This document shows, in pieces, positions 7,184-23,827 of a stretch of DNA of 64,000 bases (the first letter of the stretch is position 1; the number at the start of each line of letters is the position of its first letter). Made by a program: the position numbers and the translations under genes. The notes below the pieces were generated by a model, which saw only the letters and a program-made list of their open reading frames with translations, was not told the DNA's origin and did not search any database. The stretch covers positions 3,348,001 to 3,412,000 of the forward strand of contig NZ_CP039371.1 of assembly GCF_005080685.1 (NCBI RefSeq). Reading direction: 5' to 3'. This DNA comes from Pseudomonas putida (lineage in GTDB: Bacteria; Pseudomonadota; Gammaproteobacteria; Pseudomonadales; Pseudomonadaceae).

Positions 7184-10100
7184 TTACTGTGCCGCAGCCG
7201 TTGCCGGCGGCGCGTCGTTGGTTACCCGCAAAATCCCCCACAGCCCCGAGAGGTTGCCGTAGGCGGCGTAGTCCCGGAACAGATAGTCCCCCGGCACGCC
7301 ATTGGCGCCCCCGGCGCTCGGCAGCATGAAGCTGAAATGCGCGGCCGGTAGCACACTCTCCTGGGCACCGATGTACATGGCCATCGGGTTGAGCCCGAAG
7401 CGCACCGAGCCGACGCCAGGCAGGTTCGTCGGGTACCCATCGACGTCGTTCTTCTCCGCCTGGTAGTTGTGCAGCGGCCACAGGTGGCCATCGAGCTGGT
7501 AGACCATGCCGCGGCTGCCACCGCTGGGCATGACGATGTGGTTGCGCACCGGCTGCCCTGGCTTGGCGTAGAGCACCGGGGTCAGCGGGTCGCCACCGAC
7601 CAGGGCGTTGGCGTAGGCCATGTGGGCGTTGGGCACGTCACCGAAGCCCAGACCACCGGCGCGACCGAACGGCGAGTCCGGAGCCATGCCGAAGCGCAGC
7701 CACAGCGGTTCGGTGCGGTAGTTGACGGCCATGTTGCCGTTGTCCTGCGGGTCGCCCGCCGCGCCGTTGCCCTCGGTGTTGATACCTTCTACCGGACGGC
7801 CATCGGCCCAGCGCATGTTCAGCGCCCGCTGCCAGACCGTGACGAAGTCGCGGTAGTCCGCCTGGCCGCTGACCTTGACCGTTGCCTGGGCACGGGTCGC
7901 CGCGTCCTCGGTCCAAGTCGCGGTCTGCGGCAGGATGCTCATGGCACCGACCAGGCCTTTCTGCGGCTGCTTGATGAAGTCCGACGGGGTCAGGTTGAGG
8001 CCGCCGAACTCGATCGCGGTGGTGTTGATGTTGTCCACCGTGCGCCCCAGTTGCAGCACCGGTTTGCCTTCACGCTCCAGGTGGCCGGCGTAGTACTGGT
8101 ACACCTTGCTTGGATAGGCACCGCTGTTGCCGACCCGCGGCGGTACGGTCTGTACCGGGTTGAGGCCGACGTTGGCGCCATCGGACTTGGTGATGTCGTA
8201 GGCCAGCAGCTGGGCATGCAGCCCTACGTGGCTGGACGGCCGCATCAGGTTGTTGGCAAAGGCAGTGGAACCTTCGCTGTCGAACCGATCGCGCTTGACC
8301 ACGTTATGCATCACGGCAGTGCTTGGCAGGTCCGGCATCACCTGCGGCAGGCGGTTTTCCAGGGTGATGCTCACGCAGTCGCCGGCGTTGGCCCGCAGGA
8401 TCAGCGGCTCCACGGGCACGCCCGCTTTCAACTTGCCAGTGCCGGGGTCCAGATCGGCCTTGCGCACGTAGAGGATCGCGGTCGGGTCATGCAGCGGTGC
8501 ACTGTGGCCGCCGATGGTGAAGGCCTCGCCGTCCTCAGGGTCGACCCCGCTGACCAACGGGATGCTGGTCTTGCGGTTGTTGAACACCAGGGTGCCACCA
8601 TTGGCGTTGAGCGGCCCGCCGACATGCTGGCCGACGCCGGACGGGTCGTTGATGCTGACGCCGTTGCGGTTCTCCAGGATGTCGTTGGCCAGCGCGGCGA
8701 CGATCTCGTAGCTGCGTTTGACCGTGGTGCGGGTGCCGATGCCATTGGGGTTGGCCGTGGTTTTCGGGCAGATACCGTCGAAGTTCACGGTGTTGCGCAT
8801 GGCCACCGGCTGCGGGTTGTTGGGCAGCGGGAACAGGTCGGGGCGCTGGGCGGTGTAGTTGCGCATCACACCCCAGATACCATTCCAGTAACCTTCCAGG
8901 GCCGCATCCAGCGAGTACAGGTAGTCGCCATTGGTGGCGGCGGCACTGGAGATCATCGATACCGGCGCCATGAAGCCCAGTTGCTCGGAGATACCGATCA
9001 TCTGCGACGACTTCCAGCCCGAGTTGGAGCTGTTGCCGAAGCCCGTGCCATTTTGCAGCCACTTCACGCCGTGCAGGGTGACGTTGTGCTCCTCCTCGTG
9101 GCCACCGGCATGCATGCGCAGGCGCACATTGTCCCCCGAATAGGTGCGCAGCATCGGCGTGAATGGGTCGCCCGGTTCGCTGGCCTTGTTGATGTGCGGC
9201 GGGAACAGCGTGGTGCCGCCGGTGGGGCCGACCGCCGAGGTGATCGCCGAAGGCGCCAGGTTCATCGCCGGGATGGCGCGGTCGGTGCGGGTCTGCAGGG
9301 CGTAGCTGAGGTCGCCGGCCAAGCCGTCGGCCTGCATGCCGCGCTTGCCGTCCGGGCCGACCTTGTTCGGGTCGAACACGCGCAGGGCCAGCGGTTCGTT
9401 GCGGTAGTTGACGACGAACATGCCAGGGTCATCCACCGAGATCGCCTGTGGGCACGGCCGGCTCGGGCAGCCTGGATTGAGGCCGCCGCGCTCCTCGACG
9501 ATGGCTTCGAGCAGGCTCGAGGCCTTGCCGCGCACCGGCGGATTGATGGCGTAGCGGAAGCTGTCGGCGGTAGCCGGATACGACTGGGCATTGGGGATGC
9601 CATCGGGGCCTGCACCGACATACACACCCGCCTCGTAGGCATGCTGGAAGTCGCTGTATTCGAGGAAGAACTCGCGGTAGCTGTCGTTCTTGCCGTCGCC
9701 GTCGTGGTCGCCGGTCTGGATCACCGCCTGCCACGAGGTCGGACCGCCATCCTGGCGAGTCGCCGGGTTGTACAGCTGCTCGCCGGTTTCAGCGTGGTAC
9801 CAGGTGGAGTTGGCAGGCTCTGCCAGCACGGTGGCATACAGGCCCAACTGCTGGTGGGTCGATGGACCGAGGTGGTCATGGGTGAAGATGGTGCCCAGGC
9901 CCCGGTCGACGTTGTGGACGTTGACCAGCGGGTCGGCGAACCAGCGCTGCATGGCGGTACGCGCGCCCAGCCAGTCGGCCCTGCCGAAGCGGCCGAAGTA
10001 CGGGTGCGCCTTGGCTTTCGGGCAGGCCGCCGTGCCGTCGCGGGTGTCACCCTCGGTGCAATTGTTGTAGGCGCGGATGGCATGCACGCGCTCGACCACA

Positions 10101-13027
10101 CTGCCGGGCGAGAGAATGCCGTCCTCGTAGTTCCAGCCGTTGGCAGAACCGTCGGCGGCGGTCAGGTCCCACTTGGGCAAGTGGATGTGCTGGCCGATCA
10201 CGTCGGTTGGGGTACGCACCTGGTAGTCGTCCATTTCATAGAACGACGGAATCAGGTTGGTGTGCTGGTACATGGTGCAATCGAAGGTGTTCATGCGCAT
10301 CACCAGCGGCTCTGGTGGGCGCTGCTTGGTGATCACCGGCCAGGCATCCTCCCACAGGGCAATGATGCGCGCCTGCGGGAAGTGGTAGCCGACCTTGTTG
10401 TACACCGCATCGAACTGGATATTGGCGCCCTTGTAGATGCGGGGGCGGTCGGCGGTGAAGGCGGACGAGCCGCGGAAGTTGATGCCGGTGAGGCTTTCAC
10501 CGCTGAAGTACTCGCCAGCACCTGCAGATTGGGTCAGGCGCTTGCCGCGGTCGTCCATGCAGGGCTCGTAGAACGGCGCGCCCGCGGTGGGCAGCGCACC
10601 GTTGGTACGAAACGCCTTGGGCACAGGTTGGCTGCCTGGAATCAAGGCATAGCTCGGGTGCTCGGCCAAGGCGTGGAACTGCATGGCGGCCTGCTCGACG
10701 TCGGTGCCCTCCTCGGGCAGGTAGATCGGCTTGGCCTTGTGCACCACCTTGGAAAAATCGAGCTTGGTAGTGGTAGTCACCGCTTCGCCGCCAGCGGACA
10801 CGCCATCCAGCGCGTGACGCCCAAGACCGCCATCCCAGCCATCGACCTGATTGGGGTCGAGGTTGGCCCACAGCGCCTTGCCGGTGGCCTTGAGCTGGCG
10901 AGCCATGTCCGGATCGAGCATATCCAATGGAGGGGTTGGTGGACGGTTGCCGACGCTGCTCTCCATGCCGCCGATCCAGAACGGATAGCCAGGGTTCTTC
11001 AAGGTACCGTCGGCGTTGGTATCGGTGCGGTCGACCAGGGCCAGCGAGCCGATCGCCTTGCGTGCAGCGGGCTCATCGGCGTGGTCGTCGTCGCCCTCCT
11101 GCTCATCTTCCTCGGCGTCATCGTCATCGTGCGCCGCCACCAGTTCCTCGGACAGCTTGGGCACCACCACGACCTTGCCAGGCATCGGCGCCATGGCCTT
11201 GCCTGGCAGCGGCACGATGGCCGGGATGGGCGTGCCGGCGATGATTTCGCCATCGGGCAATGCCCGAGCGCCAACGGCAGGCTTGCCGCTGCGCAGGGCA
11301 AACGGTGTGCTATGGAAACCGTTCTCGCCCTGCCCGCTCACCTCCAGGCGGGTACCTTCCTCGAACACGTCGTGGACCCGCCACATGGCCCACATGCCTT
11401 GGGCGAAATGCGGGTAGAAGTGGCAGTGGTAGATGGCGTCGCCGGCCACGCGGTTGCGGTTACCCGACCCGCCGTTGGCGATTTCATAGGTGTAGCCCAC
11501 GCCCGCGCCGATACCTTGGGCATCGATGTAGTCGGAGTTGTCGTCGTTGGGGTTGAACAGCCACTGATGGCCGTGCAGGTGGAAAATGTGCTGTTCGTGG
11601 CCGTTATGGGTATTGCGGAACTTGGTGAAGTCGCCAATGTAGCTGTGGTGCACGTTGGCAGGCTCGGCCGGATACAGCGCCATGGTCGCTTTCACGCCGG
11701 TGGCGCTGGCAGGCGGCACCTCGCCAGGGCGGATGTGTTCGAGGCCAACGTTGGCCGGGACATCGACCAGGGTGCCGATATCGCCCACTGTGTGCGCACT
11801 CAGGAAGAACTCCTCATAAGCGCACGACAAGCAGTCATGCATCGGCCCGACACCCAGACGGTTGGCGACCACCTCGGCGCCCATGCCGCCCGAGCCGTAG
11901 TTGATCATGAACGAGTCGCGGGCAGGCTCCAGCACATGCCCCATCACCGGGTCCGCCCAGTATCCGGGGAAGGCCTGGGTACCGGCTACCTCGTCGGCGA
12001 ACTGCGAGGCGAAGTCGCGAAACGCCTCGAGCCGGTTGGGCAGTGCCGGGTTGCGCTTGCCGATGCTCTCCAGCGGGTAGGTCGACTTGGGGAAGCTGCC
12101 GTCCTGGTTGGGGCCCATGACGATGGCATCGGTCTCGCTGTTGATGATCTCGTTGTTGTAGATCATCGCGATGATCGGCTTGCCGGCCTTGCCCTCGCTG
12201 ATCCACGGCTCGGTTTGCGGGTAGCGGGCCTCGTAGTCGATCACCGGTTGGCCGGTGGGCGCACGCCCGCTGGTGGCCAGGCGCATTTCCTCTTCGGTGA
12301 GGGTGTTGCGGTAGGTGCGGCCATTCTTGGGCACCACCACCACCTGGCCGAACAGGCCGTTGGCAACGTTGCCCGCGGTGCCCTCACCGCCGAAGGTGGC
12401 TGCCTTGCTGGTCGCGGCGAAGGCCCCTTCGCGCTCGGCGTACAGCGTGTAGCTGCGGGTGTTGCCTGGGCTGACCAGGAAATTGCCATTGCGACCGGTG
12501 TTGGCGGAAATGTCGGCGATGCTGTTGACTGCCTGCATGCCGTTGACCTGGAAGCCGACCATGCGCTCGGCGACCTGTTCATCGGCGACGAAGCCTTCAT
12601 CGGCCTCGTTCTCGACCTCTTCCTCGCCTTCCACTTCCGGCCCCTCGGCCTCGATGCCGTGCTTGTTGGGGTTGGCCCGGTAATCGAGCAGGTTGGTCAG
12701 GTTGACCGTGAGGCAGTCACCGGCAGCCACACGCAGGACGATCGGGCGGGGCCGCTTGTCCGGGCGCAGGGTGACTTTCCCCGGCACGGCGGCACCGCCG
12801 ATGCTCAGCGGCACCTGTTTATCGTCCACCACATCCTCACGGAGGGCGAAGATCATGCCGTTGGCGTTCTGCGCGCCAAGGCGGTTGAACATCAGGGGCT
12901 GGTCCAATGCCACCACATTGGCCACCAGGGTGCGCTGGCACTGCACAGCCGCCTCGCTGGTGGCTTGCCAGCCCAGGAGGGCGAACACGAGTGATGTCAG
13001 GACGGGGCCTTTGTTCGGGGTCGACAT
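7184..13027 (-). CDS. mnxG: Giant multicopper oxidase, MnxG-type manganese oxidase
   Basis: From ATG 13027 (site GGAGGTG) the gene encodes about 1,947 residues, the size expected for P. putida MnxG, which oxidises Mn(II) to Mn(III/IV) at the cell surface. A signal peptide (TSLVFALLGWQATSEA) opens it. Copper-type motifs include FHLHGHQW near residue 481, YHCHFYPHFAQGMW near 530-545, GQHIHLPKW near 948 and THDHLGPSTH near 1050. A His/Glu-rich stretch (AGGHEEEHNVTLHG) lies near 1310. Two strongly acidic stretches at about 125-150 and 630-652 could bind metal. An alternative upstream start (13045) lacks a ribosome site. A well-spaced sigma-54 promoter is 39 bp upstream, consistent with reported RpoN and MnxR control of Mn oxidation in strain GB-1. 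Confidence 0.9.
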   Translation of the reverse strand: MSTPNKGPVLTSLVFALLGWQATSEAAVQCQRTLVANVVALDQPLMFNRLGAQNANGMIFALREDVVDDKQVPLSIGGAAVPGKVTLRPDKRPRPIVLRVAAGDCLTVNLTNLLDYRANPNKHGIEAEGPEVEGEEEVENEADEGFVADEQVAERMVGFQVNGMQAVNSIADISANTGRNGNFLVSPGNTRSYTLYAEREGAFAATSKAATFGGEGTAGNVANGLFGQVVVVPKNGRTYRNTLTEEEMRLATSGRAPTGQPVIDYEARYPQTEPWISEGKAGKPIIAMIYNNEIINSETDAIVMGPNQDGSFPKSTYPLESIGKRNPALPNRLEAFRDFASQFADEVAGTQAFPGYWADPVMGHVLEPARDSFMINYGSGGMGAEVVANRLGVGPMHDCLSCAYEEFFLSAHTVGDIGTLVDVPANVGLEHIRPGEVPPASATGVKATMALYPAEPANVHHSYIGDFTKFRNTHNGHEQHIFHLHGHQWLFNPNDDNSDYIDAQGIGAGVGYTYEIANGGSGNRNRVAGDAIYHCHFYPHFAQGMWAMWRVHDVFEEGTRLEVSGQGENGFHSTPFALRSGKPAVGARALPDGEIIAGTPIPAIVPLPGKAMAPMPGKVVVVPKLSEELVAAHDDDDAEEDEQEGDDDHADEPAARKAIGSLALVDRTDTNADGTLKNPGYPFWIGGMESSVGNRPPTPPLDMLDPDMARQLKATGKALWANLDPNQVDGWDGGLGRHALDGVSAGGEAVTTTTKLDFSKVVHKAKPIYLPEEGTDVEQAAMQFHALAEHPSYALIPGSQPVPKAFRTNGALPTAGAPFYEPCMDDRGKRLTQSAGAGEYFSGESLTGINFRGSSAFTADRPRIYKGANIQFDAVYNKVGYHFPQARIIALWEDAWPVITKQRPPEPLVMRMNTFDCTMYQHTNLIPSFYEMDDYQVRTPTDVIGQHIHLPKWDLTAADGSANGWNYEDGILSPGSVVERVHAIRAYNNCTEGDTRDGTAACPKAKAHPYFGRFGRADWLGARTAMQRWFADPLVNVHNVDRGLGTIFTHDHLGPSTHQQLGLYATVLAEPANSTWYHAETGEQLYNPATRQDGGPTSWQAVIQTGDHDGDGKNDSYREFFLEYSDFQHAYEAGVYVGAGPDGIPNAQSYPATADSFRYAINPPVRGKASSLLEAIVEERGGLNPGCPSRPCPQAISVDDPGMFVVNYRNEPLALRVFDPNKVGPDGKRGMQADGLAGDLSYALQTRTDRAIPAMNLAPSAITSAVGPTGGTTLFPPHINKASEPGDPFTPMLRTYSGDNVRLRMHAGGHEEEHNVTLHGVKWLQNGTGFGNSSNSGWKSSQMIGISEQLGFMAPVSMISSAAATNGDYLYSLDAALEGYWNGIWGVMRNYTAQRPDLFPLPNNPQPVAMRNTVNFDGICPKTTANPNGIGTRTTVKRSYEIVAALANDILENRNGVSINDPSGVGQHVGGPLNANGGTLVFNNRKTSIPLVSGVDPEDGEAFTIGGHSAPLHDPTAILYVRKADLDPGTGKLKAGVPVEPLILRANAGDCVSITLENRLPQVMPDLPSTAVMHNVVKRDRFDSEGSTAFANNLMRPSSHVGLHAQLLAYDITKSDGANVGLNPVQTVPPRVGNSGAYPSKVYQYYAGHLEREGKPVLQLGRTVDNINTTAIEFGGLNLTPSDFIKQPQKGLVGAMSILPQTATWTEDAATRAQATVKVSGQADYRDFVTVWQRALNMRWADGRPVEGINTEGNGAAGDPQDNGNMAVNYRTEPLWLRFGMAPDSPFGRAGGLGFGDVPNAHMAYANALVGGDPLTPVLYAKPGQPVRNHIVMPSGGSRGMVYQLDGHLWPLHNYQAEKNDVDGYPTNLPGVGSVRFGLNPMAMYIGAQESVLPAAHFSFMLPSAGGANGVPGDYLFRDYAAYGNLSGLWGILRVTNDAPPATAAAQ

Positions 13028-13065
13028 GCTGCACCTCCGGGACACAGGGACTCTGCGAGGAGGTG

Positions 13066-13082
13066 AGCAAGCTGTATGCCAA
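13066..13082 (-). promoter_or_regulatory. Sigma-54 (-24/-12) promoter of the mnxG operon
   Basis: The minus-strand sequence is TTGGCATACAGCTTGCT. The GG and GC doublets are exactly 12 bases apart and TGGCA...TTGCT fits the RpoN consensus. Transcription would begin near 13055, about 28 bases before the mnxG start and just ahead of its GGAGGTG ribosome site. Confidence 0.8.
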
Positions 13083-13133
13083 TCAGGAAATTGCCTTTAT
13101 TTCATTGAGTTGCGTTTGCAAGCGAATCGAATT

Positions 13134-13171
13134 GGGGAGGATTCCCCAGTGTGATTCCCCGAATGGGGGGA
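13134..13171. promoter_or_regulatory. C4/G4 palindromes, candidate UAS for mnxG
   Basis: This stretch holds GGGGAGGATTCCCC (13134-13147) and ATTCCCC-GAATGG-GGGGA (13154-13171), with ATTCCCC also directly repeated at 13141 and 13154. Centred about 85-110 bp upstream of the expected start site, they are placed as sigma-54 activator sites. The second has exactly the 18-base layout of the site at 1465-1482. The phosphonate operon ends only 30 bp away, with no terminator between. Confidence 0.55.
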
Positions 13172-13201
13172 CGATTTTCATTGTCATTTGCAGAGGTGAG
13201 G

Positions 13202-13771
13202 CTAGCGATAATCGACCGCGAGTATCTGCGAGCCTGCCTCCTTGGCATAAAAGGCATGCGCGACCCAGGACTCGATGAAGATGGAATCGCCCATGCGCAG
13301 TACATCCTCACGCCGAACACCAGACGGGCTACGCCAGAGCACTCCCACTGCACCAGACAGCACATAGACGAATTCCCTGGCCTGATGCCCGCCATTGAGG
13401 GTCGCCTGGTCGGCGCTGGTGAACAGCGGCGTGGTTCTGAGCACCATGAGGTGTTTGTCCGCCGATGTCTTCATGACATGACGATAGAAATAGGCCGGCT
13501 CGCCCGCGACGCATTTCAACCGGTCGAAGCGAGTTTGCCTGCCGGAAATCTTCACGCCATGTACCAGGTCGTCCGCTGATGATTCGATCTGCTCAATGAC
13601 ATGCGCTATCGGCATTTGCAGCGCCGCAGCCAGAGCGGTGAGCTGTGCTAGGGTCATCCGCGCCCCGCCCTCGACCTCGTCGTCATGCAGTCGAGCGTCG
13701 CCGAAACTCATCTTACGTGTGCTCAACAACCGTGCCAGCGCCGCGGGGTTGATATCCAAATATTCGCTCAT
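13202..13771 (-). CDS. HppE/HEPD-like XRE-cupin mononuclear iron oxygenase, second copy
   Basis: The 189 residues contain an N-terminal XRE-like helical domain (to about 60) and a C-terminal cupin with the 2-His-1-carboxylate iron site: H129 and E133 in NGGHQARE, and H172 in VAHAF. Residues matching HppE substrate contacts are kept (K20, Y94, Y96, N126), but the position of HppE Arg97 is Val88. I therefore read it as a paralogue of the epoxidase encoded at 17242-17814 with a different substrate or reaction. It is the last gene of the phosphonate operon, and its start overlaps the 2-phosphonomethylmalate synthase stop (ATGA). A purely regulatory XRE-cupin protein is less likely given the intact iron site. 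Confidence 0.8.
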
Positions 13772-14913
13772 GGCTTACGCCTCCCAGGCAGGGTCGAGTA
13801 AAGCAATCCAACATCGGCAAAACTCAGGGCACCGGCCTTGATCATCGAGACCTCGCGCACCCACTGCAGGAGGTCGGGCAGATCGTCCTCGGCATACTTC
13901 AGCTGCAATTGTTCCAGAGCGTATTTCAAGCAGGCACGTCCGGAATGCTTGCCCACGACGATTTCCCGCTGCCTCCCCACCAGCGCAGGAGAGAACGGCT
14001 CGAACGCCTTGCCATTGCTCAAGGTGCCCCTGGCATGTATGCCCGACTCATGGGTGAAGACATTGGCTCCAACCACCGGTTGCCAAGGATGAACCCGCGT
14101 ATGCGTAGCGCCCGCTACCAGTTCACTGAGCCCTTGTAATTTTTCGGGCCTCACGCCCACATCGACGCCGTACTGGACTTTCAACGACAGCACCAACTGC
14201 GCCAGGTCGGGCATGCCGGCTCGTTCACCAATACCGTTTACGGTAACGTGAAAGTACCTAGCGCCCGCCTGCAAGCCCGCTATCGTGTTGCCGACAGCAT
14301 GGCCGAAGTCATTGTGTGCATGGCACTGAACGTCGATGGGCGCTGCGGCGATCACCTCACCCACTACACGATGGTATTGCTCGGGGGTGAGGATGCCGAC
14401 AGTGTCGGAAAGCCGTAGCCTGTCGGCCCCTGCCTCATGTACACGAGCGGCATAGTCAGCGACGAAAGCGCTATCGGACCGACCTACATCCTCGGCGCTG
14501 ATCGAAACGAACGCGCCCCGTTGCTTGGCATAATCGATCAACTCGCAGGCGTGTTCGAGCAACCAGGCCTTGGGCTTGTTGACGCTGTCCTTGAGCTGGA
14601 TATCGGACGTCGGCAAACCGATATGAACGTACCTGAACCCCATGTCCAATGTGCGCCGCAGGTCGTCCTTTACGCCACGGTTCCAGCCAACCAGGCGTAT
14701 GTCCGTGCCCTGGGTACGTTCCAGCATCTGGGCCAGGGTCCGGCTCTCGCTGCCGCCCATGGCATTGATCCCTCCTTCGATCCAGCGGATACCCGCGTCC
14801 ACCAAGGCATCGAAAATCCTCAACTTGGTCGCGCTGTCGAATGCGACACCCGGCGCTTGCTCGCCATCGCGTAGCGTGGTGTCTTCAATGATCACATCGT
14901 CGCGAATGTTCAT
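13768..14913 (-). CDS. psf2: 2-Phosphonomethylmalate synthase (homocitrate/isopropylmalate synthase family)
   Basis: The 381 residues from ATG 14913 (GGGAG site, 6-nt spacing) form a DRE-TIM metallolyase. The signature DTTLRDGEQ is at residues 11-19 (R15 and D16 catalytic and metal-binding), the metal site HAHND at 198-202, and GERAG at 229-233. In phosphonate clusters this family (FrbC, Psf2) condenses phosphonopyruvate with acetyl-CoA to 2-phosphonomethylmalate, which pulls the unfavourable PEP mutase equilibrium forward. Homocitrate or citramalate synthase is the alternative, but the neighbouring PEP mutase and Psf-type genes make the phosphonate role far more likely. It is coupled by 4-base overlaps to genes on both sides. 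Confidence 0.88.
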
Positions 14914-15797
14914 GACGCGCTCCCTGCGTTGCCGGTTGAAAGCCTGGAGAAGTACAGGCATTGGTCACCCTCGTCGCCAAACGTGAGTCTGAGGTCGTGA
15001 AATGTCGCCATCGCGACGGTTGAAAGTGGGTATGACGGGCCGATGGGCATCTGCTGCTGGGCCAGGTCGAGATCCTTGCAGCGCACCGCCAGGCTGACAC
15101 TGCTGGACCCGCCCTGGGACAGGGCATAGTTCATTGCCACCTGCATATAGGCCGAGCGCCCTCTGCACGTGCTGAAAACAGCTTGCATCGACTCCAGGTC
15201 CAGCCCAAGCGCCTGGCCCTGGCTGATGACCTCGATTGCCCCTGCCAGGTTGATGCTCTCTGCCAGGTTATTGAGAATTTTCAGGCGCTGCGCCTTACCC
15301 GGCACTTCCACGAACGTCACCATCAGGGTGAAGGCGGCGAGTAATGGCCGAACAATGGAATAGGCCGCTGGCCGCGCCGACACGATAGCGCTCAAGGCGC
15401 CCTTGAGCGCGCCCTCGACGCCTCCAGAAACGGGGCACTCGATGAAATCCGCCCCGCGTGCTCGAAACGCGGCATGCAGTGCAATGGCCGTCTCGGGAGC
15501 GATCGTGCTCAGATCGACGACGATGCTCCCTTCAACGACATTCGCGAGCAGGCCCGTGTTCTTGTCATGGTAGATCTGCTCGACGGCCTGATGACCGGAA
15601 GAGCAGACGAAGATGATATTCGCGGCCCGTGCCACGGACCTGATTTCAGGAACCCAGAGAGCACCTTGGCGCACTAGCTCCGACGATTTGTCCTCGGACC
15701 GGTTATGGACAATCAGCTGGATGCGATGGCTGATCAGGCGTTGGCAAATTGCGCGCCCCATGCGCCCTAGGCCGATAAAACCGACGGCACCATTCAT
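14910..15797 (-). CDS. psf3: Psf3-type beta-hydroxyacid dehydrogenase (2-oxopropylphosphonate reductase)
   Basis: The 295 residues from ATG 15797 (AAGGAG site) belong to the 3-hydroxyisobutyrate/6-phosphogluconate dehydrogenase family. The Rossmann motif GLGRMG is at 9-14, NR at 32-33 suggests NADP preference, the substrate loop PVSGG is at 122-126, and the catalytic pattern is K173xxxN177 (KILNN). In Pseudomonas fosfomycin synthesis Psf3 reduces 2-oxopropylphosphonate to (S)-2-hydroxypropylphosphonate, the substrate for HppE. A longer reading to 15902 would start inside the upstream kinase gene and has no ribosome site, so I reject it. The start overlaps the upstream stop (ATGA). Confidence 0.88.
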
Positions 15798-16423
15798 GGG
15801 CGCTCCTTGAGCAGAGGCAAGAGGATGTTGCGCAGGTCTGCCGACACACGATAAGCCGGCTGATCCGCATCGATCACCGTCCAGCCCAACGCGTGCGACC
15901 ATCGGTCCATCAGCTTCTTAAGCTTGGCCTGGTGCTCGCTGAAAGTATGCGCACCGATTTCCTCGCACCCACATTCGTAGGGCGTGAATACCTGCTTGCG
16001 TAGGCCGGTGACGCCGACTTCGATATCGAAATAAAGCACCCTATCAGCCACAGGTAGCGGCGACACCAAGTCGAACAACCACTGTTCATCGTTACCATAA
16101 AGGGCTTCGGCAGCCAGGTGCTTCATCCAGTATCCGTCAAGCAGGTACACCTGATCGGTGCACGGTTGGTACTGCTTCATGACGGTGGCGATCGACCAGA
16201 TGAGAAACAGCGCCCGGGCTGGCCCCTGCATCTGGGCGATGCACACGCGCAGCTGATCGAGGTCGGGTTGCAAGAACCTGCATTCTGGAAACGCCTCGGT
16301 ATCAAAAACATCCCACTTGTCGATCACCCGGCAGGGCACGCCCATCGAGGTCAACCAGCGTTGCAGATATTCACATTGCGTGGACTTACCTGCGCCATCG
16401 GTACCTGCAAGTGCTATCAGCAT
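15794..16423 (-). CDS. Thymidylate kinase-like P-loop kinase of the phosphonate operon
   Basis: The 209 residues have a P-loop GTDGAGKST (7-15), an LLDGYWMKHLA segment where thymidylate kinases have the DR(Y/W)-type motif, and a C-terminal helical part typical of the dTMP kinase fold. The genome should have its own Tmk elsewhere, and the divergent mid-region suggests another acceptor. In a fosfomycin cluster, a second phosphorylation of phospho-fosfomycin (the job of FomB in Streptomyces) or nucleotide activation of an intermediate are possible roles; both are inference. Its start lies 4 bp downstream of the FosC-type kinase stop. Confidence 0.75.
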   Translation of the reverse strand: MLIALAGTDGAGKSTQCEYLQRWLTSMGVPCRVIDKWDVFDTEAFPECRFLQPDLDQLRVCIAQMQGPARALFLIWSIATVMKQYQPCTDQVYLLDGYWMKHLAAEALYGNDEQWLFDLVSPLPVADRVLYFDIEVGVTGLRKQVFTPYECGCEEIGAHTFSEHQAKLKKLMDRWSHALGWTVIDADQPAYRVSADLRNILLPLLKERP

Positions 16424-16427
16424 CGGT

Positions 16428-17219
16428 TCATTCGCTCAAAAACACAGTCCCAAACTGACGTGTGCCACGCAGGGACTGATCAAGATGATGGAAGTGCTCG
16501 AACGCCAGCACTTCCGATTCCACGCCTCGTTGTGCGAGCAGACGCTGTTGCATGAACTTGTTGCGCATGCCGCCGGTCAGGTCCGTAGCAGCGGAGCCGC
16601 CCACCAGCCCTTGTACATCGGACGCATTGGTGCTGCTGACGAACGCAATGATGGTGCTCGGATCTGCGGGGTCGTAAATGCCGCTCACATCGGTGTAATA
16701 CAGCACCCGACGAACATCGAAATCCTCGGTCAACAAGGCGGGGATGTCGTCACTGGACAGCAATAGCGGTTCGCGCCCTTGGCCGATTACCAAATCACCG
16801 CTGAGCAAAGGTATATAACCTGCGGCCATCACAGCGCGGAGAGAGCGCGTGTCCATCGTCAAGCAACCGCTCTCATCGGCACTGCACAGGGCGCTTGTCT
16901 GTAACGGATAGACTCTCAAGGCATGATCGACACAAACGTTTGAGATTTCCGACAACATCGCGAACATGGTCACCGTCATCATGGGCAAATCGACTGATGG
17001 CAATCCCCCGTCGCGCTCGAATATCCGGTAATCGGTGGGCGCCAGATTGCCATATGACCCACCCCCTAAAACCAGGATGAGCGGAACGTCCCAACTTGCC
17101 GCCCTGCTTTGCAATACCTCGGCTATGAATGCAATCACCTCGTGACGTAACTCATAGCGGCCTTGCTTTCTCGTGGTGATGCTGCCACCGAGTTTGACCA
17201 CATAACAGGCTGCGCGCAT
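16428..17219 (-). CDS. fosC: Fosfomycin kinase, FomA/FosC type (self-resistance)
   Basis: The 263 residues from ATG 17219 (GGGGGAGG site) are close to FomA in length and belong to the amino-acid-kinase fold. K9 in VVKLGGS and K18 align exactly with FomA catalytic Lys9 and Lys18. T215 and K221 in LTGGMRNK keep the spacing of FomA Thr210 and Lys216. The glycine loop GGGSYGN is at 52-58, but its last residue is Asn where FomA has His58, a substrate-contacting residue. FomA and FosC phosphorylate the phosphonate of fosfomycin, protecting MurA in the producer. A general acetylglutamate or isopentenyl phosphate kinase is less likely in this context. Confidence 0.85.
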   Translation of the reverse strand: MRAACYVVKLGGSITTRKQGRYELRHEVIAFIAEVLQSRAASWDVPLILVLGGGSYGNLAPTDYRIFERDGGLPSVDLPMMTVTMFAMLSEISNVCVDHALRVYPLQTSALCSADESGCLTMDTRSLRAVMAAGYIPLLSGDLVIGQGREPLLLSSDDIPALLTEDFDVRRVLYYTDVSGIYDPADPSTIIAFVSSTNASDVQGLVGGSAATDLTGGMRNKFMQQRLLAQRGVESEVLAFEHFHHLDQSLRGTRQFGTVFLSE

Positions 17220-17241
17220 GCCTGCCTCCCCCGTTTTATAA

Positions 17242-17829
<588 letters not shown>

Positions 17830-18570
17830 TTATCGGTTCATCAGTGACTGGCGGTAGATATTCGACATCGCTACCAGCCGAGGGGTGTTCGGCTCATGCT
17901 CGTGGCGACTCTGGCGAGTTGAAAGCCATTGTTCGGCGGTGCAGGGTGAGGCATCAGATAGTTGTTCGAAAACCGTGTAGCCTGCTCCGACCTGAATGAA
18001 AGTGTGCGCATCGGAACCCCCGGTGGTCGCCAACTTCAAGGCTTCGGCAAGCGCCACGTAGCGCGGTGCATTAGCCATGTCTTTGGCAGGTACTTCTATG
18101 GCATGGATATAGCGGCCGAGCATTTCCAAGTCGTCACAGGTTTTCCCAGGCCAAAGTACATGGTGCGCGACCAGCTTGAACGGCTTACCGCGCCGCTTCA
18201 GGCGGTCATGGAGAGCGGCCAAGGTATAGGCACCGGCTGAGCGCTCCAATGCCAACAGCCCTTGCAGATCGGTATGCACACCAACGTTGGTTTTGTTGGC
18301 AAGTTCCAGTTCCGCCGCAGGGAACAGGCAAACACCCTGAACGCATAGCGTGTTCTCGCCATGGAGGTAACCGCCCATCTGGTTTTCGACGAATAATCCC
18401 TGCATCAACGACGCGTAGCCGTCTGCCTCGATATGTTCGGTGATGCACAGCGCATCCAGGCCACTGATCGACGCCATCTCGAGCACTTGGCCGATCGCCT
18501 GCCAATCGGGTGATGACTGGCGCTTGCTCAACAGCAAATGCACGTGGGTATCAACGCATCTGGTTGTCAT
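17830..18570 (-). CDS. psfC: PsfC-type PHP-fold oxidative decarboxylase
   Basis: The 246 residues form a PHP (polymerase and histidinol phosphatase) fold. Metal ligand candidates are H9 and H11 (DTHVH), E45-H46 (ITEH), E87 (AAELE), H136-H137 (VAHH) and D187/H189 (GSDAH). PsfC of fosfomycin-making pseudomonads is a diiron PHP protein that oxidatively decarboxylates 2-phosphonomethylmalate to 3-oxo-4-phosphonobutanoate, which leads to 2-oxopropylphosphonate. The operon company matches that role exactly. The start ATG 18570 has a GAGGTG site. A phosphoesterase is the alternative by fold alone. Confidence 0.82.
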   Translation of the reverse strand: MTTRCVDTHVHLLLSKRQSSPDWQAIGQVLEMASISGLDALCITEHIEADGYASLMQGLFVENQMGGYLHGENTLCVQGVCLFPAAELELANKTNVGVHTDLQGLLALERSAGAYTLAALHDRLKRRGKPFKLVAHHVLWPGKTCDDLEMLGRYIHAIEVPAKDMANAPRYVALAEALKLATTGGSDAHTFIQVGAGYTVFEQLSDASPCTAEQWLSTRQSRHEHEPNTPRLVAMSNIYRQSLMNR

Positions 18571-18573
18571 GTT

Positions 18574-19134
18574 TCACCTCATCACTGATCTCACGATGCG
18601 CTCATACCGGGTGTAGGGTGGTAGGCATTCGCCCACATAGGGCGCATCGTCGAATACCCTGACAAGCAGGGCCTGCTCATGCTGCCGGTGGCTTGAAAAA
18701 GCGCTGAGCTCATGTTCGGTCATCAACCCACCCTGGTTTTCCAGGCTTTGCTTTGAGCCCCGACCCAGTTGCATGCGATAGGCCGGGTCTACCGTTGCCA
18801 GATAACGTTTTGCATCGATGTGCATCGCCACAGGCGCACACACCGAAGCTGGAAACCACCGGCTCAGCCAGGTAGCCGCCAGCGCGGCATGCTCCCGGTC
18901 CCGGTAGTAATCGGGCAGTTCCGGGTCGCCCGCGCACAAGCAGTGGCCGATGTCATGAAACAATGCAGCGACCACGAGGGGGCTTTCACACCCTGCGGCC
19001 TGTGCTTGATAAGCGACCCACAGGGAATGCTGGAGCAAATTACCGCCTTCGTTGAGCTCAATGTTCGCGCATTGGCGCATGACGCTTTTAAGCAAGAGCA
19101 ACACATTGTGGGTCGCCACATCAGTCATACCCAT
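18574..19134 (-). CDS. PhnZ-family HD-domain (mixed-valence diiron) oxygenase
   Basis: From ATG 19134 (or ATG 19128) the product has about 186 residues of the phosphonate-associated HD family. Predicted diiron ligands are H36, H60-D61 (LFHDIGH), H82, H105 and D162, with K109 (HIDAKRYL) matching the PhnZ phosphonate-binding Lys. E29 occupies the PhnZ Glu27 position, while the PhnZ Tyr24 position is Glu26. PhnZ-type enzymes oxidise 1-hydroxyphosphonates and cleave the C-P bond, so its presence in a biosynthetic operon is unexpected. It may oxidise an intermediate, as MIOX-like relatives do. The start overlaps the PEP mutase stop. Confidence 0.8.
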   Translation of the reverse strand: MGMTDVATHNVLLLLKSVMRQCANIELNEGGNLLQHSLWVAYQAQAAGCESPLVVAALFHDIGHCLCAGDPELPDYYRDREHAALAATWLSRWFPASVCAPVAMHIDAKRYLATVDPAYRMQLGRGSKQSLENQGGLMTEHELSAFSSHRQHEQALLVRVFDDAPYVGECLPPYTRYERIVRSVMR

Positions 19135-19999
19135 ATAAACGCTCTGCAACTTCCAGCTCATCGTAATCCAGCAGTTTGAATATCTCTGGCAAGGAAGCGA
19201 TGCGGGGATTGATCGTACTGATGCCGTTATCTTGACGAATCTGCCGCGCTGCGTCGCGCATGGCGTGTACGGATGCGCGCATCATGTGGTTTGCACATAT
19301 ATAGATGGATACACCCGCTTGCTCCAACAGAGCGACCGGCGTATCCACATAGGTGGTGGGCGCAACCACCAAAGGGCAACGGCCTTGCCAGCACCGGGCA
19401 AATTCGAGTATGTCACGGCCGTCGCCAGACTTCGAATGGATGAACAAAGCATCCGCGCCAGCGGCGTAATAACGCTCGGCTCGTTTTAGTGCAGCGGTTA
19501 CATCCAGCCCAGCGATCAACGCCTCGGTGCGAGCGATTACGGAAAACTGCGGATCTCGCTTGGCATCCTGGGCGGCTTTTATTTTTCCACAGAATCCATC
19601 CACCGAACTCAGCGCATGCACCCCATCGATAAATGAATTCATTTTTGGAAATTGCTTGTCTTCCAGAGAAATGCCCGCCAAGCCATAATGAGACAAGCGT
19701 TTCACGATATGCCGAACATTATTGAAGTTACCAAATCCAGAATCGCCATCGAAGAGCACTGGAATGCTCACTGCGTCGTGGATGGTTTGTGCCACTTCGA
19801 CGACCTGACTCCAGGAGGCCTCGTTACAATCACGTAACCCCAAGGCTGACGAAATGGACAACCCCGACGCCCAGATGGCCGGAAACCCTGCTTCTTCGAC
19901 GATACGCGCAGACAACCCACTGTGGGCCTCCAGCATGAGGTCGAGTTTATCGTTAAACAAGTTTTGTCGGAAAATTCCTGCAGAAGACAATGCACGCAT
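19121..19999 (-). CDS. pepM: Phosphoenolpyruvate phosphonomutase (PepM/Psf1)
   Basis: The 292 residues fold as an isocitrate-lyase-superfamily barrel. The diagnostic PEP mutase motif EDKx5NS is present as EDKQFPKMNS at 113-122, and the metal-binding DGDSGFGN is at 84-91. The enzyme isomerises PEP to phosphonopyruvate, forming the C-P bond that starts nearly all phosphonate pathways. It is the first gene of the nine-gene minus-strand operon, with a GGAG site 6 nt before ATG 19999. No phosphonopyruvate decarboxylase gene is present, which fits a pathway that traps phosphonopyruvate with acetyl-CoA. Methylisocitrate lyase is excluded by the intact EDKx5NS motif. Confidence 0.95.
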   Translation of the reverse strand: MRALSSAGIFRQNLFNDKLDLMLEAHSGLSARIVEEAGFPAIWASGLSISSALGLRDCNEASWSQVVEVAQTIHDAVSIPVLFDGDSGFGNFNNVRHIVKRLSHYGLAGISLEDKQFPKMNSFIDGVHALSSVDGFCGKIKAAQDAKRDPQFSVIARTEALIAGLDVTAALKRAERYYAAGADALFIHSKSGDGRDILEFARCWQGRCPLVVAPTTYVDTPVALLEQAGVSIYICANHMMRASVHAMRDAARQIRQDNGISTINPRIASLPEIFKLLDYDELEVAERLYGYD

Positions 20000-20225
20000 T
20001 AAACACTCCGTTTAACTTGCAATTTAACTCCATGTGCAATCAGTGTTAGCCAATGCACCTGAAAAACACAAGACCTTAGTTTCATTCCCTTACAAATGAA
20101 CCAACCTTCCGACAATGTCACTGACGGGTTACAAAAAGCCGGCCATCACCGCCTTGACAATAACGCCAACGCCTTTCTAGTCTCGTACCTGCCTAATTGA
20201 AGGCGTACCCGCATCAGGAGAGCCT
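20000..20225. promoter_or_regulatory. Divergent promoter region of the phosphonate island
   Basis: This 226-bp AT-rich gap separates pepM (minus) from the peptide gene (plus) and must hold both promoters. For the plus side a TTGACA at 20154-20159 is followed after 18 bases by TAGTCT (20178-20183), a fair sigma-70 pair 42 bp before the peptide start. A clear minus-side promoter was not identified. TTTAACTTGCAATTTAAC near 20010 contains two TTTAAC direct repeats that could be an operator. No regulator gene is recognisable within the island. Confidence 0.45.
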
Positions 20226-20312
20226 ATGAAGATCGTTATTTCCAGCAGCATCCCGGCTGTCACCAGTAATGGTGTGCAAGTTCGTTCCACCGGCGGAGGT
20301 TCGGCAAAATAA
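20226..20312 (+). CDS. 28-residue peptide, candidate RiPP precursor or leader peptide
   Basis: ATG 20226 follows a good ribosome site (AGGAG, 6-nt spacing) and opens 28 codons ending in TAA. The peptide begins MKIVISSSIP and ends STGGGSAK. It has six Ser, two Thr, no Cys, three Lys/Arg residues and a Gly-Gly-Gly stretch near the C-terminus. It has no transmembrane segment. It is followed by a perfect hairpin (20333-20356) and then by three tightly packed genes of unknown purpose. The ribosome site, the hairpin and the position argue that it is translated. It could be a modified-peptide precursor or a regulatory leader peptide; I recognise no known family. Confidence 0.5.
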   Translation: MKIVISSSIPAVTSNGVQVRSTGGGSAK

Positions 20313-20332
20313 ACCTCCATTACTCCCCACTT

Positions 20333-20356
20333 GCGATGAGGGTCCGCCCTCATCGC
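20333..20356 (+). terminator. Perfect 10-bp hairpin between the peptide gene and the DUF6065 gene
   Basis: GCGATGAGGG and CCCTCATCGC flank a TCCG loop, without a T-run after the stem. Located 20 bp past the peptide stop, it could act as an attenuator or mRNA-stabilising structure that leaves more peptide transcript than downstream transcript, as is common after RiPP precursor genes. Confidence 0.6.
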
Positions 20357-20384
20357 CATTTACATCAGGACACTTTCGTCGAAC

Positions 20385-21125
20385 ATGGATAATGCCATCC
20401 AGTTTTATCGCGCCTTGCCCGATATTCCTTTGCCATCAGCCGCACAAAGGGCATTGGATGGAAATATATCGGCACGTGCTCATCAGTTTTGCGAACCGTT
20501 CCTGGTCGCCAACGGCATGGGTTATCTGCTTTATCCACCGATAGATTTCAACTTGTATTGGGACGGGACACAGACCCTGGTTCAATTAGAAGGCATCAGC
20601 GATTGGATCATTGTCGACAAGATATTCCTGCCCTATTCCATGGATCATTGGCGCGATCAGGTGGACTCCGAACTCGTCGACACATTGCCGGTGTTCCTCG
20701 AAGCGTTCCCCGAGCGAGGCGTATTGCAGTTATGGTCGGGCTACTTCGCCAGCACGCGTCCCAGCTACAGCCTATGGATCAGAGGGCCGGTGAACCGCCC
20801 CAGCAGCAAGGCCTACAGCGTGATAGAGGGCATCGTGGAGACCGACTGGTGGGCTGGCCCGCTGTTCACCAACATCGAAATAAGCAAGACCGATACGCCC
20901 ATCATGTTCCGGCGCAATGTGCCCTTGCTTCAGGTGTTCGCATTGCCCCGCGGCATTCACCAGCGTGACGCGCGTGAGCCCGTTTTGGTGACCGAACTCA
21001 CACAGGGGGTGGACAGCCAGTTCGTCGCCCGCATGAAGGACACCGCAAATCGGCGCAATACGCAGAGGCCCGGTTCTTATCGAAAATGCGCTCGGCAGTC
21101 GAGGAGGTCGGATGATCGAGACTGA
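20385..21125 (+). CDS. DUF6065-like protein of unknown function
   Basis: The 246 residues include conserved-looking aromatic segments: NGMGYLLYPPIDFNLYWDG, GLF-type WSGYFASTRPSYSLWIRGP and DWWAGPLFTNIEI. I recognise the pattern as the DUF6065 family, which has no established activity. No signal peptide, membrane helix, metal site or nucleotide motif is evident. The start ATG 20385 has a weak ribosome site, perhaps because it depends on the upstream hairpin or peptide translation. It overlaps the nucleotidyltransferase start by 14 bases. Its location in a module with a tiny peptide makes peptide handling a reasonable guess, and no more. Confidence 0.65.
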   Translation: MDNAIQFYRALPDIPLPSAAQRALDGNISARAHQFCEPFLVANGMGYLLYPPIDFNLYWDGTQTLVQLEGISDWIIVDKIFLPYSMDHWRDQVDSELVDTLPVFLEAFPERGVLQLWSGYFASTRPSYSLWIRGPVNRPSSKAYSVIEGIVETDWWAGPLFTNIEISKTDTPIMFRRNVPLLQVFALPRGIHQRDAREPVLVTELTQGVDSQFVARMKDTANRRNTQRPGSYRKCARQSRRSDDRD

Positions 21126-22122
21126 CCGCGTCTATCAACTGCTACCCCGCCTCATCGATTCGATAGCACGCCGCGAACCCGTGCTCATCGAAGGGTTGGA
21201 CGACAGCGAAATCCTTGCCCTGCTGCCCATCCTGACCCGGCACAAGTTGGAAAGTATCGCCCTGCTGTCGATGGAGGAAACTTCGGCGATGGCTACTTTT
21301 TACAACGACACCTATGAAGCACAGTTTTCTGCCGTTCGTGATCGGCTCGCCAAGCCATTGAAAGCGTCTGCCGGCGTCTTTCTGCAGGGTTTTCCACGCT
21401 GCCTGGACTACTCGGATTTCTACACGCCTGGCATGCGCAGCGATATCGACCTCTACGTCCCCGTATCGACCTGCAGCGCATTTCGCGAAGCCGCAATGCA
21501 GGCGGGTTTCGATTACTACGGTTTCGACCATCAGCGCGTATTCGTTTTGAACGAACGGCAATCGGATGCGCTGACGGCCCGGCAGTGGGCAAGCAAAGAC
21601 CTGCCCTTGACCCTACCTGTGGAGGTGGCGTTACCTGACCTGCCCGTGGAGCTTTCTGACTGCTACCTCCCCTATGTACTGCGGGAGGGCAAGGTCTATC
21701 TGTTCATATCCATCGAAATCCACCACCTCTATACTCATCTTTCGGACATCGATGTGCTTGAAGCGAACAGGGAGTACTGGCCGCAGATGGGCGTGGATCG
21801 CTGCAACCCCGAAGCCACCTTGTTCTTCAACCTGATCCGGCTCTATCGCGGCGTGCTCGCAGATGAAGCACGCATGCGCCTGGTACTCGATAGCGCATGC
21901 CTGTTCACCAGCAAGCATTATCGCTTCGACTTAGGCCTGTTGCAGCAGTTGATCGTCGGTGCTCAGGATACAGATCGGGTTATGGCTGTATGCCTGGCAT
22001 TAGCCAACCTGCACCCGTTGTTCGAGCCGCTGGTGTGCATCCCCTGCACACATATCCACGCCCAGCTCGCTGGCGAGTGGCTTTCGCGCTTTCAGCAAAG
22101 CTTGCGCGCGGGCGCCCAGTGA
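21112..22122 (+). CDS. Nucleotidyltransferase-fold protein (NTP_transf_5 type)
   Basis: The 336 residues carry a polymerase-beta nucleotidyltransferase signature. FLQGFPR at 90-96 is followed by MRSDIDLYV with catalytic Asp111 and Asp113, and the long helical C-terminal half is typical of the uncharacterised nucleotidyltransferase family PF14907. Members occur in several natural-product loci, including lasso-peptide clusters; a specific substrate is unknown. The start ATG 21112 has a strong GAGGAGG site. It could nucleotidylate a phosphonate intermediate, a small molecule or the upstream peptide. The stop overlaps the MFS start. Confidence 0.72.
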   Translation: MIETDRVYQLLPRLIDSIARREPVLIEGLDDSEILALLPILTRHKLESIALLSMEETSAMATFYNDTYEAQFSAVRDRLAKPLKASAGVFLQGFPRCLDYSDFYTPGMRSDIDLYVPVSTCSAFREAAMQAGFDYYGFDHQRVFVLNERQSDALTARQWASKDLPLTLPVEVALPDLPVELSDCYLPYVLREGKVYLFISIEIHHLYTHLSDIDVLEANREYWPQMGVDRCNPEATLFFNLIRLYRGVLADEARMRLVLDSACLFTSKHYRFDLGLLQQLIVGAQDTDRVMAVCLALANLHPLFEPLVCIPCTHIHAQLAGEWLSRFQQSLRAGAQ

Positions 22123-23312
22123 CCAGCCCCAAAGCGCCCTACCAACTCGTCTGCGCCTTTGCCCTCGAAAACTTCTGCAGCCAGGTTTTGTTCATCTATA
22201 CGCCGTTGTTCGTCATTTTCAACGGCGGGGATGGCGTACTCGGGTCGTTTCTACGAGCCCTGGCCTACATCGGTCCAGTACTGTTCGGCTACTACATCGG
22301 CGTTCTGGTCGATCACTTCGACAAGCGTTGGCTGGGTTGCAGCATCGCCCTTTTGTTAGCCGCTGCCGCCGCTTGCTACACCTTGCGACTACCGGACCAG
22401 ACACTGGGCGAGACCTTCCTGTTCCTGGGCTCGGTTTCCATAGGCACTTACTTCCTGAACAACCTTCGCGCGTCGGTGATGCCGAGTGTCGCCCGCCGGG
22501 CGCAACTGCCACGCATGAATGCCACCTTGCTGGTAACCGAGAACATTGCGCTGCTCGCGGCCCCCTTGATTGCCTCGCTGTTGCTTTCGGCAAGCAGCCC
22601 GAGCGTTGGGTTTGCCGTCATTGCCGCGCTCTTTTGTCTGGCGACCACCCTCTATTACTTCGCGCTGGCGAATCTGCCTTGTGTCGAGCATTCGCCGCAG
22701 GCATTGGGCACCTTTGGCGACAATCTGCGCCTACTTACCTCTAACAAGCCCTTGCTCCGGCTCGTCTATGTCGTCATGGGCAACAATGCGTTCGTTGGCG
22801 TCTACCTGCTCTACATTCTCATCTACGCCGCAGAGACCGGGTTGTTCGATGCCGCGCAAGTCCCCCAGATCCTGATCGCCTACGCGCTCGGCTCGATCCT
22901 GTCCGGCAGCACGGCCGAAAAGGCCATTACGTTATTCGGCAACCGCAACCTGGCCCTGCTGTGCTGCCTATTGATGGCGATGGGGGGCTCGCTTCCTCTG
23001 TGGTTACCAGCCTATGAAGTCTTTTTCCTTTCAGCCTTTCTCGTGGGATTCTTTGCCGCTTATGTCGTGATCGCCGTCTGGACGCTCCGGCAAACCCTGA
23101 TTCCGGCCGCTTCCCTGGGACGCGTCACCGGAATTACCAGCGCGCTATTCAAGCTGTCCATGGTCGTCGCAATCCCCATCGCCGGCCTGCTCGGCGAAAG
23201 CCAGGGCAGCGCGGCGGCAGTTGTGTTTGGCCTTGCCGGCATTCTGCTCGGCGCAATACCCCTGGCGCGGGCGGCACTTGTCGAGCGTTTTGGCAAAACC
23301 GGGGCAACATGA
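22119..23312 (+). CDS. MFS exporter of the phosphonate island
   Basis: GTG 22119 overlaps the nucleotidyltransferase stop (GTGA) and begins VTSPKAPYQLVCAFALENF, giving 397 residues with 10-12 hydrophobic helices of the major facilitator superfamily. Basic loops occur after helices 2 and 4 (DHFDKRWLG, ARRAQLPRMN). The fold resembles MFS drug exporters, and the likely cargo is the product of the adjacent pathway (fosfomycin-like phosphonate or modified peptide). A longer upstream reading in the same frame to 21897 lies inside the nucleotidyltransferase gene and is rejected. No terminator is obvious after the stop. Confidence 0.85.
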   Translation: MTSPKAPYQLVCAFALENFCSQVLFIYTPLFVIFNGGDGVLGSFLRALAYIGPVLFGYYIGVLVDHFDKRWLGCSIALLLAAAAACYTLRLPDQTLGETFLFLGSVSIGTYFLNNLRASVMPSVARRAQLPRMNATLLVTENIALLAAPLIASLLLSASSPSVGFAVIAALFCLATTLYYFALANLPCVEHSPQALGTFGDNLRLLTSNKPLLRLVYVVMGNNAFVGVYLLYILIYAAETGLFDAAQVPQILIAYALGSILSGSTAEKAITLFGNRNLALLCCLLMAMGGSLPLWLPAYEVFFLSAFLVGFFAAYVVIAVWTLRQTLIPAASLGRVTGITSALFKLSMVVAIPIAGLLGESQGSAAAVVFGLAGILLGAIPLARAALVERFGKTGAT

Positions 23313-23450
23313 CGCAGAATCAACGTAGATGAAATATTTTGAACGTCCTCGCCTGGCAAGATTCAAAGCTTGATCCACGTCGTCCCTCGCACGGAGCCTG
23401 CCTTGAACCCACAGCCCTCCCCCCCGCGGACCAGCCTTGGAGCCCAACGC

Positions 23451-23738
23451 ATGAAAATGCCTTGCCGCGCACCTAACGCCAACCTGAAGCTCGATTACGT
23501 ACGCGATACCCTGTTCGGCCCGGTAGCCCTTAGCGTCGAGTGCCAATGCCAGCTCGCCCCAGTCAACGTCCAGGGGCGCCCGGCCTTGCGCCTGCATATC
23601 TGCCCGCCATTGCCGGACAAGGTCGAACGCGCCCATAGCGTCGCCTTCATCTGGGAAGGCTGCAGCTACCACGGCGTGGTACGTGACCGCGGCAAATGCG
23701 GCGATGGCGGGCTCAACTTGCTGGTGGAACTGCAATAA
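23451..23738 (+). CDS. Conserved hypothetical protein, 95 residues
   Basis: ATG 23451 is preceded by GGAG at 8 nt. The product (MKMPCRAPNANLKLDY... ending GLNLLVELQ) has no signal peptide, membrane segment or motif that I can assign. The region has G+C and codon use like the core genome, marking the end of the phosphonate island. Coding is supported by its continuity, but the start could be upstream (23370). Confidence 0.6.
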   Translation: MKMPCRAPNANLKLDYVRDTLFGPVALSVECQCQLAPVNVQGRPALRLHICPPLPDKVERAHSVAFIWEGCSYHGVVRDRGKCGDGGLNLLVELQ

Positions 23739-23827
23739 CTCGATAAACGGCGGCGATCTGGGCTGAACCTGCCGCCAATACCGTGTCTCCATTGAAGGAG
23801 GGTCAACTTCTGCTTCTGGAGATCGCC

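Follow-up and report, generated by a model that had tools for sequence, protein, structure and literature searches.

A predicted psf-type fosfomycin operon and its conserved company in a Pseudomonas putida chromosome

Fosfomycin is a clinical antibiotic whose route in pseudomonads has been discovered recently. The locus described here lies in a 64,000-nucleotide stretch of the chromosome of Pseudomonas putida (assembly GCF_005080685.1, contig NZ_CP039371.1, positions 3,348,001 to 3,412,000), referred to as the window, and consists of nine closely packed genes on the minus strand, read from position 19999 to 13202 in the order pepM, HD, psfC, hppE, fosC-like, tmk-like, psf3, psf2 and hppE2. Judged from the encoded proteins, it can be assigned with high confidence to a complete psf-type gene set, a pseudomonad cluster type already known, of which it would add a complete natural example.

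An operon of nine genes

The original prediction, made from the sequence of the window, had placed six named functions in one tightly overlapping operon. All six are encoded on the minus strand within exactly 13202-19999, with the kinase scoring under the fosC cut-off, and neighbouring genes either overlap or are separated by at most about 25 nucleotides (nt), with ATGA overlaps at the tmk-like/psf3, psf3/psf2 and psf2/hppE2 junctions; these junctions rest on start codons picked by comparison with relatives. The content has to be extended to nine genes, since those of an HD-domain protein, a thymidylate-kinase-like (tmk-like) protein and a second HppE-like protein (HppE2) had been overlooked, and the left boundary at 13202 is the end of hppE2. 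Every reading frame of the cluster is open in the window. In order of transcription, and with the longest open reading frame (ORF) given where the start is inferred, the genes are:

19121..19999, minus strand: pepM/psfA (Psf1), phosphoenolpyruvate (PEP) mutase; TIGR02320 above the equivalog cut-off, EDKx5NS motif
18574..19128 (start inferred; longest ORF from 19161), minus strand: HD-domain protein of the PhnZ/TmpB oxygenase group; TIGR03276, PDB matches PhnZ and TmpB, metal ligands and pocket residues kept
17830..18570, minus strand: psfC, PHP-type diiron enzyme; PDB 7rty
17242..17814, minus strand: hppE (Psf4), epoxidase; PDB 5u55
16428..17219 (start inferred; longest ORF from 17339), minus strand: fosC-like kinase of the amino-acid-kinase fold; NF000122, PDB FomA
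15794..16423, minus strand: tmk-like P-loop protein; weak P-loop matches, relatives on Rhizobium plasmids
14910..15797 (start inferred; longest ORF from 15902), minus strand: psf3, (S)-2-hydroxypropylphosphonate dehydrogenase type; PDB 5u5g
13768..14913 (start inferred; longest ORF from 14961), minus strand: psf2/psfB, phosphonomethylmalate synthase; HMGL-like and homocitrate synthase families, copy in P. fluorescens PS833
13202..13771, minus strand: hppE2, second HppE-like cupin; PDB 5u55, metal triad kept, Val at R97

A second Pseudomonas genome, G389, has all nine genes in unchanged order. Between the two, third codon positions are the most changed in the eight operon genes compared; psf2, whose frame is broken in G389, was left out. 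An Rfam scan of 12900-24000 returned no match at gathering scores.

The predicted route to fosfomycin

The PEP mutase reaches 322.2 bits with TIGR02320, against an NCBIfam equivalog cut-off of 319.55, and its motif, announced as EDKx5NS, indeed reads EDKQFPKMNS. Psf2 matches the HMGL-like and homocitrate synthase families and is 59% identical to the PS833 copy. For PsfC, the chain 7rty, named 'PsfC', is the single PDB relative at E<=1 (E 1.3e-106; 66% identity), and HppE and Psf3 match 5u55 (E 2.3e-86; 68%) and 5u5g (E 1.1e-119; 64%), respectively. The PDB output gives molecule names only, and we take these three chains to be P. syringae PB-5123 proteins. An alignment with the Psf proteins had been proposed as a check, with low identity and loss of key residues as the adverse outcome. 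The claim that HppE has all its substrate contacts needs a correction at one position: the lysine contact, R97, Y103, Y105, N135 and the H-E-H metal triad are kept (S. wedmorensis numbering, here and for HppE2), and Y102 is replaced by Cys.

As outlined in PMC12871164, the pseudomonad route runs via 2-phosphonomethylmalate and 3-oxo-4-phosphonobutanoate, with 2-oxopropylphosphonate as the decarboxylated product. In the window, PEP mutase would convert PEP into phosphonopyruvate, to which Psf2 (PsfB) would add an acetyl group to give 2-phosphonomethylmalate; PsfC would then carry out the oxidative decarboxylation of this compound to 3-oxo-4-phosphonobutanoate, whose loss of CO2 would yield 2-oxopropylphosphonate. 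The last two steps of the route belong to Psf3, which would reduce 2-oxopropylphosphonate to (S)-2-hydroxypropylphosphonate, and to HppE, which would close the epoxide on the latter to form fosfomycin. A candidate gene for each step had been predicted, and all are present. Also in agreement with the original prediction, family scans of the nine operon proteins gave no match to the phosphonopyruvate decarboxylase or methyltransferase families of the Streptomyces route, and a Streptomyces-type cluster was rejected on gene content. What is found is the set expected of a Psf-type cluster: PEP mutase, a 2-phosphonomethylmalate synthase replacing the decarboxylase, PsfC, Psf3, and an HppE with the metal triad and main contacts.

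A producer would need protection, since the MurA of this genome retains the cysteine in GGCAIG, and the FosC-like kinase fits this need. Its best family is fosC (NF000122), its PDB matches are FomA and isopentenyl phosphate kinase, and it would probably shield the producer by phosphorylating fosfomycin.

The 64-68% identity to the PsfC, HppE and Psf3 chains, the PEP mutase above its cut-off, the fosC and FomA matches and the compact operon, together with the open frames, the third-position-biased change relative to G389, the identical nine-gene order in that genome and the retained MurA cysteine, all argue that this operon would make fosfomycin by the pseudomonad route. We give this assignment, in which every step is inferred from homology, a probability of about 0.85. 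Several observations weigh against it. The kinase reaches 210.9 bits, under the fosC model cut-off of 350, and four operon genes (kinase, HD, tmk-like and hppE2) stand outside the core chemistry. In G389, psf2 is split over two overlapping frames (L011:10771-11965; pieces 74% identical), possibly by sequencing error, and in a third genome, G146, a relic of the unit is left (L087, G146:C33:111000-130000, about 9235-11620), in which pepM is broken and a truncated psfC runs into the tail of hppE2. The frame break and the relic imply that the unit is not always kept.

The company of the core genes

The locus reveals parts that the core route does not need, namely a relative of HD oxygenases, HppE2, a tmk-like kinase, and a conserved peptide with a DUF6065 protein, and this conserved company is the unexplained and more interesting part of it. 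The peptide belongs to a divergent unit beside the operon, likewise missing from the original prediction:

20226..20312, plus strand: 28-residue peptide ORF, divergent from the operon; AGGAGAG ahead of the ATG, conserved in G389
20385..21125, plus strand: DUF6065 protein; PF19541, 60.0 bits against 26.6
21112..22122, plus strand: 336-residue protein without family or PDB match
22119..23312 (start inferred; longest ORF from 21897), plus strand: predicted exporter of the major facilitator superfamily (MFS); PF07690 62.7 bits, TIGR00900 under its cut-off
13190..23438, no strand: whole low-GC block; synteny with genome G045 extends to 13189 on the mnxG side and is restored from 23439, with a drop in GC

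The peptide ORF falls outside lists made at usual ORF lengths. G389 carries the unit in the same orientation, and 27 of the 28 aligned peptide residues are identical between the two genomes, even though they differ at 50% of the third codon positions, with synonymous changes in 14 codons. It is the best conserved of the products compared, the 11 other proteins (psf2 left out) being 56-77% identical, and the intergenic stretch agrees at 114 of 223 positions (51%). Since the residues are kept despite the change at third positions, the small ORF looks like a genuine gene under selection. As for the 336-residue protein, Pfam and NCBIfam gave no match and the PDB chance-level hits only; a DID motif seen by eye is taken by us as a hint of a nucleotidyltransferase fold. 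Single-sequence structure predictions had mean pLDDT (predicted local distance difference test) values of 36.7 for the DUF6065 protein and 38.0 for the 336-residue protein, and were not used. The plasmid records searched held no match to the 336-residue protein or to the 28-residue peptide.

Two Rhizobium plasmids (L044 and L045) resemble the window in having a short peptide gene directly upstream of a DUF6065 gene (37% identity), which is followed by an MFS gene or its pieces. Their peptide genes (L044:9700-9951 and L045:7565-7951) encode three near-identical units of the repeat DFxDDGxVHIANKSP, which looks like a multi-core precursor of a ribosomally synthesised and post-translationally modified peptide (RiPP), and this gene order suggests a RiPP-like pathway. 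A RiPP locus would call for a short precursor gene under selection, beside a modifying enzyme and an exporter; the window has such a short ORF and an MFS gene, and the DUF6065 protein might be the enzyme. The Rhizobium loci differ from the window by their 84-residue repeat peptide, and no relative of the 336-residue protein was found in them. Other points speak against the RiPP-like interpretation: the Rhizobium peptide bears no visible likeness to the Pseudomonas one, and of two more plasmid DUF6065 proteins (Sinorhizobium, 24%), the one whose context was viewed is preceded by a 170-residue protein of another kind. Upstream of standard DUF6065 genes, short ORFs with a ribosome-site-like word were compared by eye at 24 of 27 loci (three could not be oriented), and none was like the Pseudomonas or Rhizobium peptides.

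With odds somewhat short of even, the divergent unit is an independent RiPP-like cluster merely adjoining the fosfomycin genes, as its opposite transcription, its own MFS gene, and the occurrence of DUF6065 with a repeat peptide and an MFS gene on the two Rhizobium plasmids, with no other gene of the block in the stretch fetched, would suggest. However, each of the three Pseudomonas loci carrying the unit also has psf genes (the window, G389, and the G146 relic, where a DUF6065 fragment and a peptide without its ATG are left), and in the Pseudomonas genomes searched it never turned up on its own, apart from a weak and broken DUF6065 match in G094. It is conceivable, if rather doubtful, that the peptide, DUF6065, 336-residue and MFS proteins would make and export a modified peptide travelling along with the fosfomycin genes. 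More tentative still is a two-part system, in which the peptide (28-30 residues), DUF6065 and the 336-residue protein would form a peptide-modification pathway cooperating with the phosphonate pathway, while HppE2 and the HD protein would act on a second phosphonate; the outcome may be, for example, a peptide or nucleotidyl carrier, a phosphonate conjugate or a partner antibiotic. If so, DUF6065 proteins of this subfamily would represent a new type of peptide-modifying enzyme.

Within the operon, the HD protein scores 132.7 bits with TIGR03276, under the cut-off of 214.6, and has PhnZ and TmpB as PDB relatives. It shares with these oxygenases the fold family, the six metal ligands and H62, K108, S126 and R158, presumably the phosphonate-pocket residues of PhnZ, all retained in the three aligned copies. 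Unlike them, it is encoded in a biosynthetic operon, stays under the NCBIfam cut-offs and lacks the Tyr24 position, which is a gap in all three copies; Glu27 is E, D or S. Because of this gap and the variable Glu27, we call it a PhnZ relative, not PhnZ, and it might, although this is unlikely, cleave a hydroxylated phosphonate by-product. HppE2 matches 5u55 at E 3.3e-22, is 34% identical to the HppE of the window, and keeps the metal triad, the lysine, Y103, Y105 and N135. The HppE2 proteins of the window and G389 cluster together (bootstrap 100); R97 is Val in both, for which reason HppE2 is termed HppE-like and not classed as HppE, and its oxidation of a related phosphonate is a speculative proposal. 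The tmk-like protein has weak family matches over the P-loop, and relatives on six plasmid records; two of the five contexts viewed (R. leguminosarum Tp73_4 and R. rhizoryzae) also encode a PEP mutase relative. It could conceivably add a second phosphate as an analogue of FomB, a role we hold only loosely. In the Rhizobium plasmid loci L082 (3031-8651) and L083, which are phosphonate loci, PEP mutase genes lie close to a relative of the tmk-like gene of the window; L082 also carries an annotated phosphonopyruvate decarboxylase.

These genes open the possibility of another main product, a different phosphonate or one tailored further, with HppE2, the HD protein and the tmk-like kinase acting on fosfomycin or on a pathway intermediate. 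Open frames of hppE2 and HD are retained in G389, the G146 relic has broken pepM and psfC genes but an intact HD gene (identity 47% with the window copy and 53% with that of G389), HppE2 keeps its metal triad with the same Val in both genomes, and the HD protein its metal and pocket residues. Against this, characterised fosfomycin enzymes are close relatives of HppE, Psf3 and PsfC, the operon also encodes a FosC-like kinase, and G389, whose proteins are closer to the PDB chains than those of the window, also carries HppE2 and HD, so that we regard a tailored product as improbable and keep fosfomycin as the expected one.

The arrangement is common to three Pseudomonas lineages, those of the window, G389 and, decayed, G146. 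HppE was found in three of 398 Pseudomonas genomes, namely the window's own, G389 and P. fluorescens PS833 (G208), and a second HppE-like gene in two of them (the window's and G389). A model of HppE and HppE2 matched one of 194 relatives of G389 (G389 itself) and eight of 398 genomes of the phylum, strongly in the window's own only; the seven other matches (E 3e-8 to 6e-6) were discarded as general cupins. DUF6065 matched in two of 298 Pseudomonas genomes, above the cut-off in the window's own only, and among 398 genomes of the phylum exceeded it in 24, own included; the G389 protein as query matched two of 239 Pseudomonas genomes, G389 and the fragment in G146. Contig scans were limited, as both missed G389 and the window: the one with PsfC confirmed no relative, and the one with an HppE alignment only PS833. 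On plasmids, the HppE search found one weak Deinococcus cupin.

Per kb, the GC content of the block lies at 0.525-0.614, compared with 0.623-0.675 in the surrounding bins. The slot next to mnxG, where it resides, is a variable cargo site: in G045 (L040:4238-8446) it holds about 4.2 kb with a VasX/BTH_I2691-type effector gene of the type VI secretion system instead. On either side of the block in G389 lie direct repeats of 277 nt (92% identity; L011:1860-2136 and 12585-12861), which are a trace of its insertion. The locus indicates a rare unit that moves as a block. The manganese oxidase neighbour that had been considered notable is a real MnxG (3850 bits with NF041487, whose cut-off is 3100), but its proximity is probably a matter of chance, given that G045 has another insert in this slot, and a functional link to manganese oxidation was rejected.

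The frame break in G389 and the relic in G146 might also mean that the cluster is silent or decaying, in line with a scan of 12900-23900 that found no sigma-70-type promoter against 4.6 sites expected. Nevertheless, all frames are open in the window, change relative to G389 is biased to third positions, and the scan covered a single promoter type; we regard a silent or decaying cluster as improbable.

Known phosphonate clusters

A flavophos-type (bsf) or other 2-phosphonomethylmalate cluster is highly improbable, given that, even though PEP mutase, the synthase and PsfC are common to the Burkholderia stagnalis locus described in PMC12871164, the families of beta-keto acid cleavage enzymes, lumazine synthases and aconitases are missing from the 12 proteins scanned, and HppE and Psf3 are present. 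The bsf cluster (L047) shares with the window PEP mutase, a PsfC-like (41%) and a Psf2-like (59%) protein, and has a beta-keto acid cleavage enzyme and lumazine synthase where the window has Psf3, HppE and the kinase (PMC12871164). On a plasmid of Agrobacterium CFBP6625 (L049:7979-12871), genes for Psf2-like (56%) and PEP-mutase-like proteins adjoin those for isopropylmalate dehydratase and dehydrogenase, possibly another 2-phosphonomethylmalate cluster.

P. fluorescens PS833 has a fosfomycin-like cluster, mentioned in PMC8719888. Its loci (L012/L013) share with the window genes for Psf2, a PsfC-like protein, HppE, a Psf3-like protein, an MFS protein and PEP mutase. They differ by another gene order, a FAH-family gene and more distant enzymes (HppE 47%, PsfC 40%, Psf3 29%), and no HD, kinase, tmk-like, HppE2, peptide or DUF6065 gene was recognised in the ORF list of this cluster.

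The closest known system is the psf cluster of P. syringae PB-5123, to which PsfABC are ascribed in PMC12871164. The G389 proteins stand nearer to the PDB chains (PsfC 71%, HppE 80% and Psf3 77%) than those of the window, and a tree of these three proteins favours grouping G389 with the chains (RELL, resampling of estimated log-likelihoods, 0.86), with the alternatives retained by the approximately unbiased (AU) test (0.125 and 0.152). If this placement is right, parsimony would predict the extra genes in PB-5123 also. The PEP mutase, Psf2/PsfB, PsfC, Psf3 and HppE functions, and a kinase of probable FosC function, are common to the window and PB-5123; the three proteins that can be compared with PDB chains are 64-68% identical.

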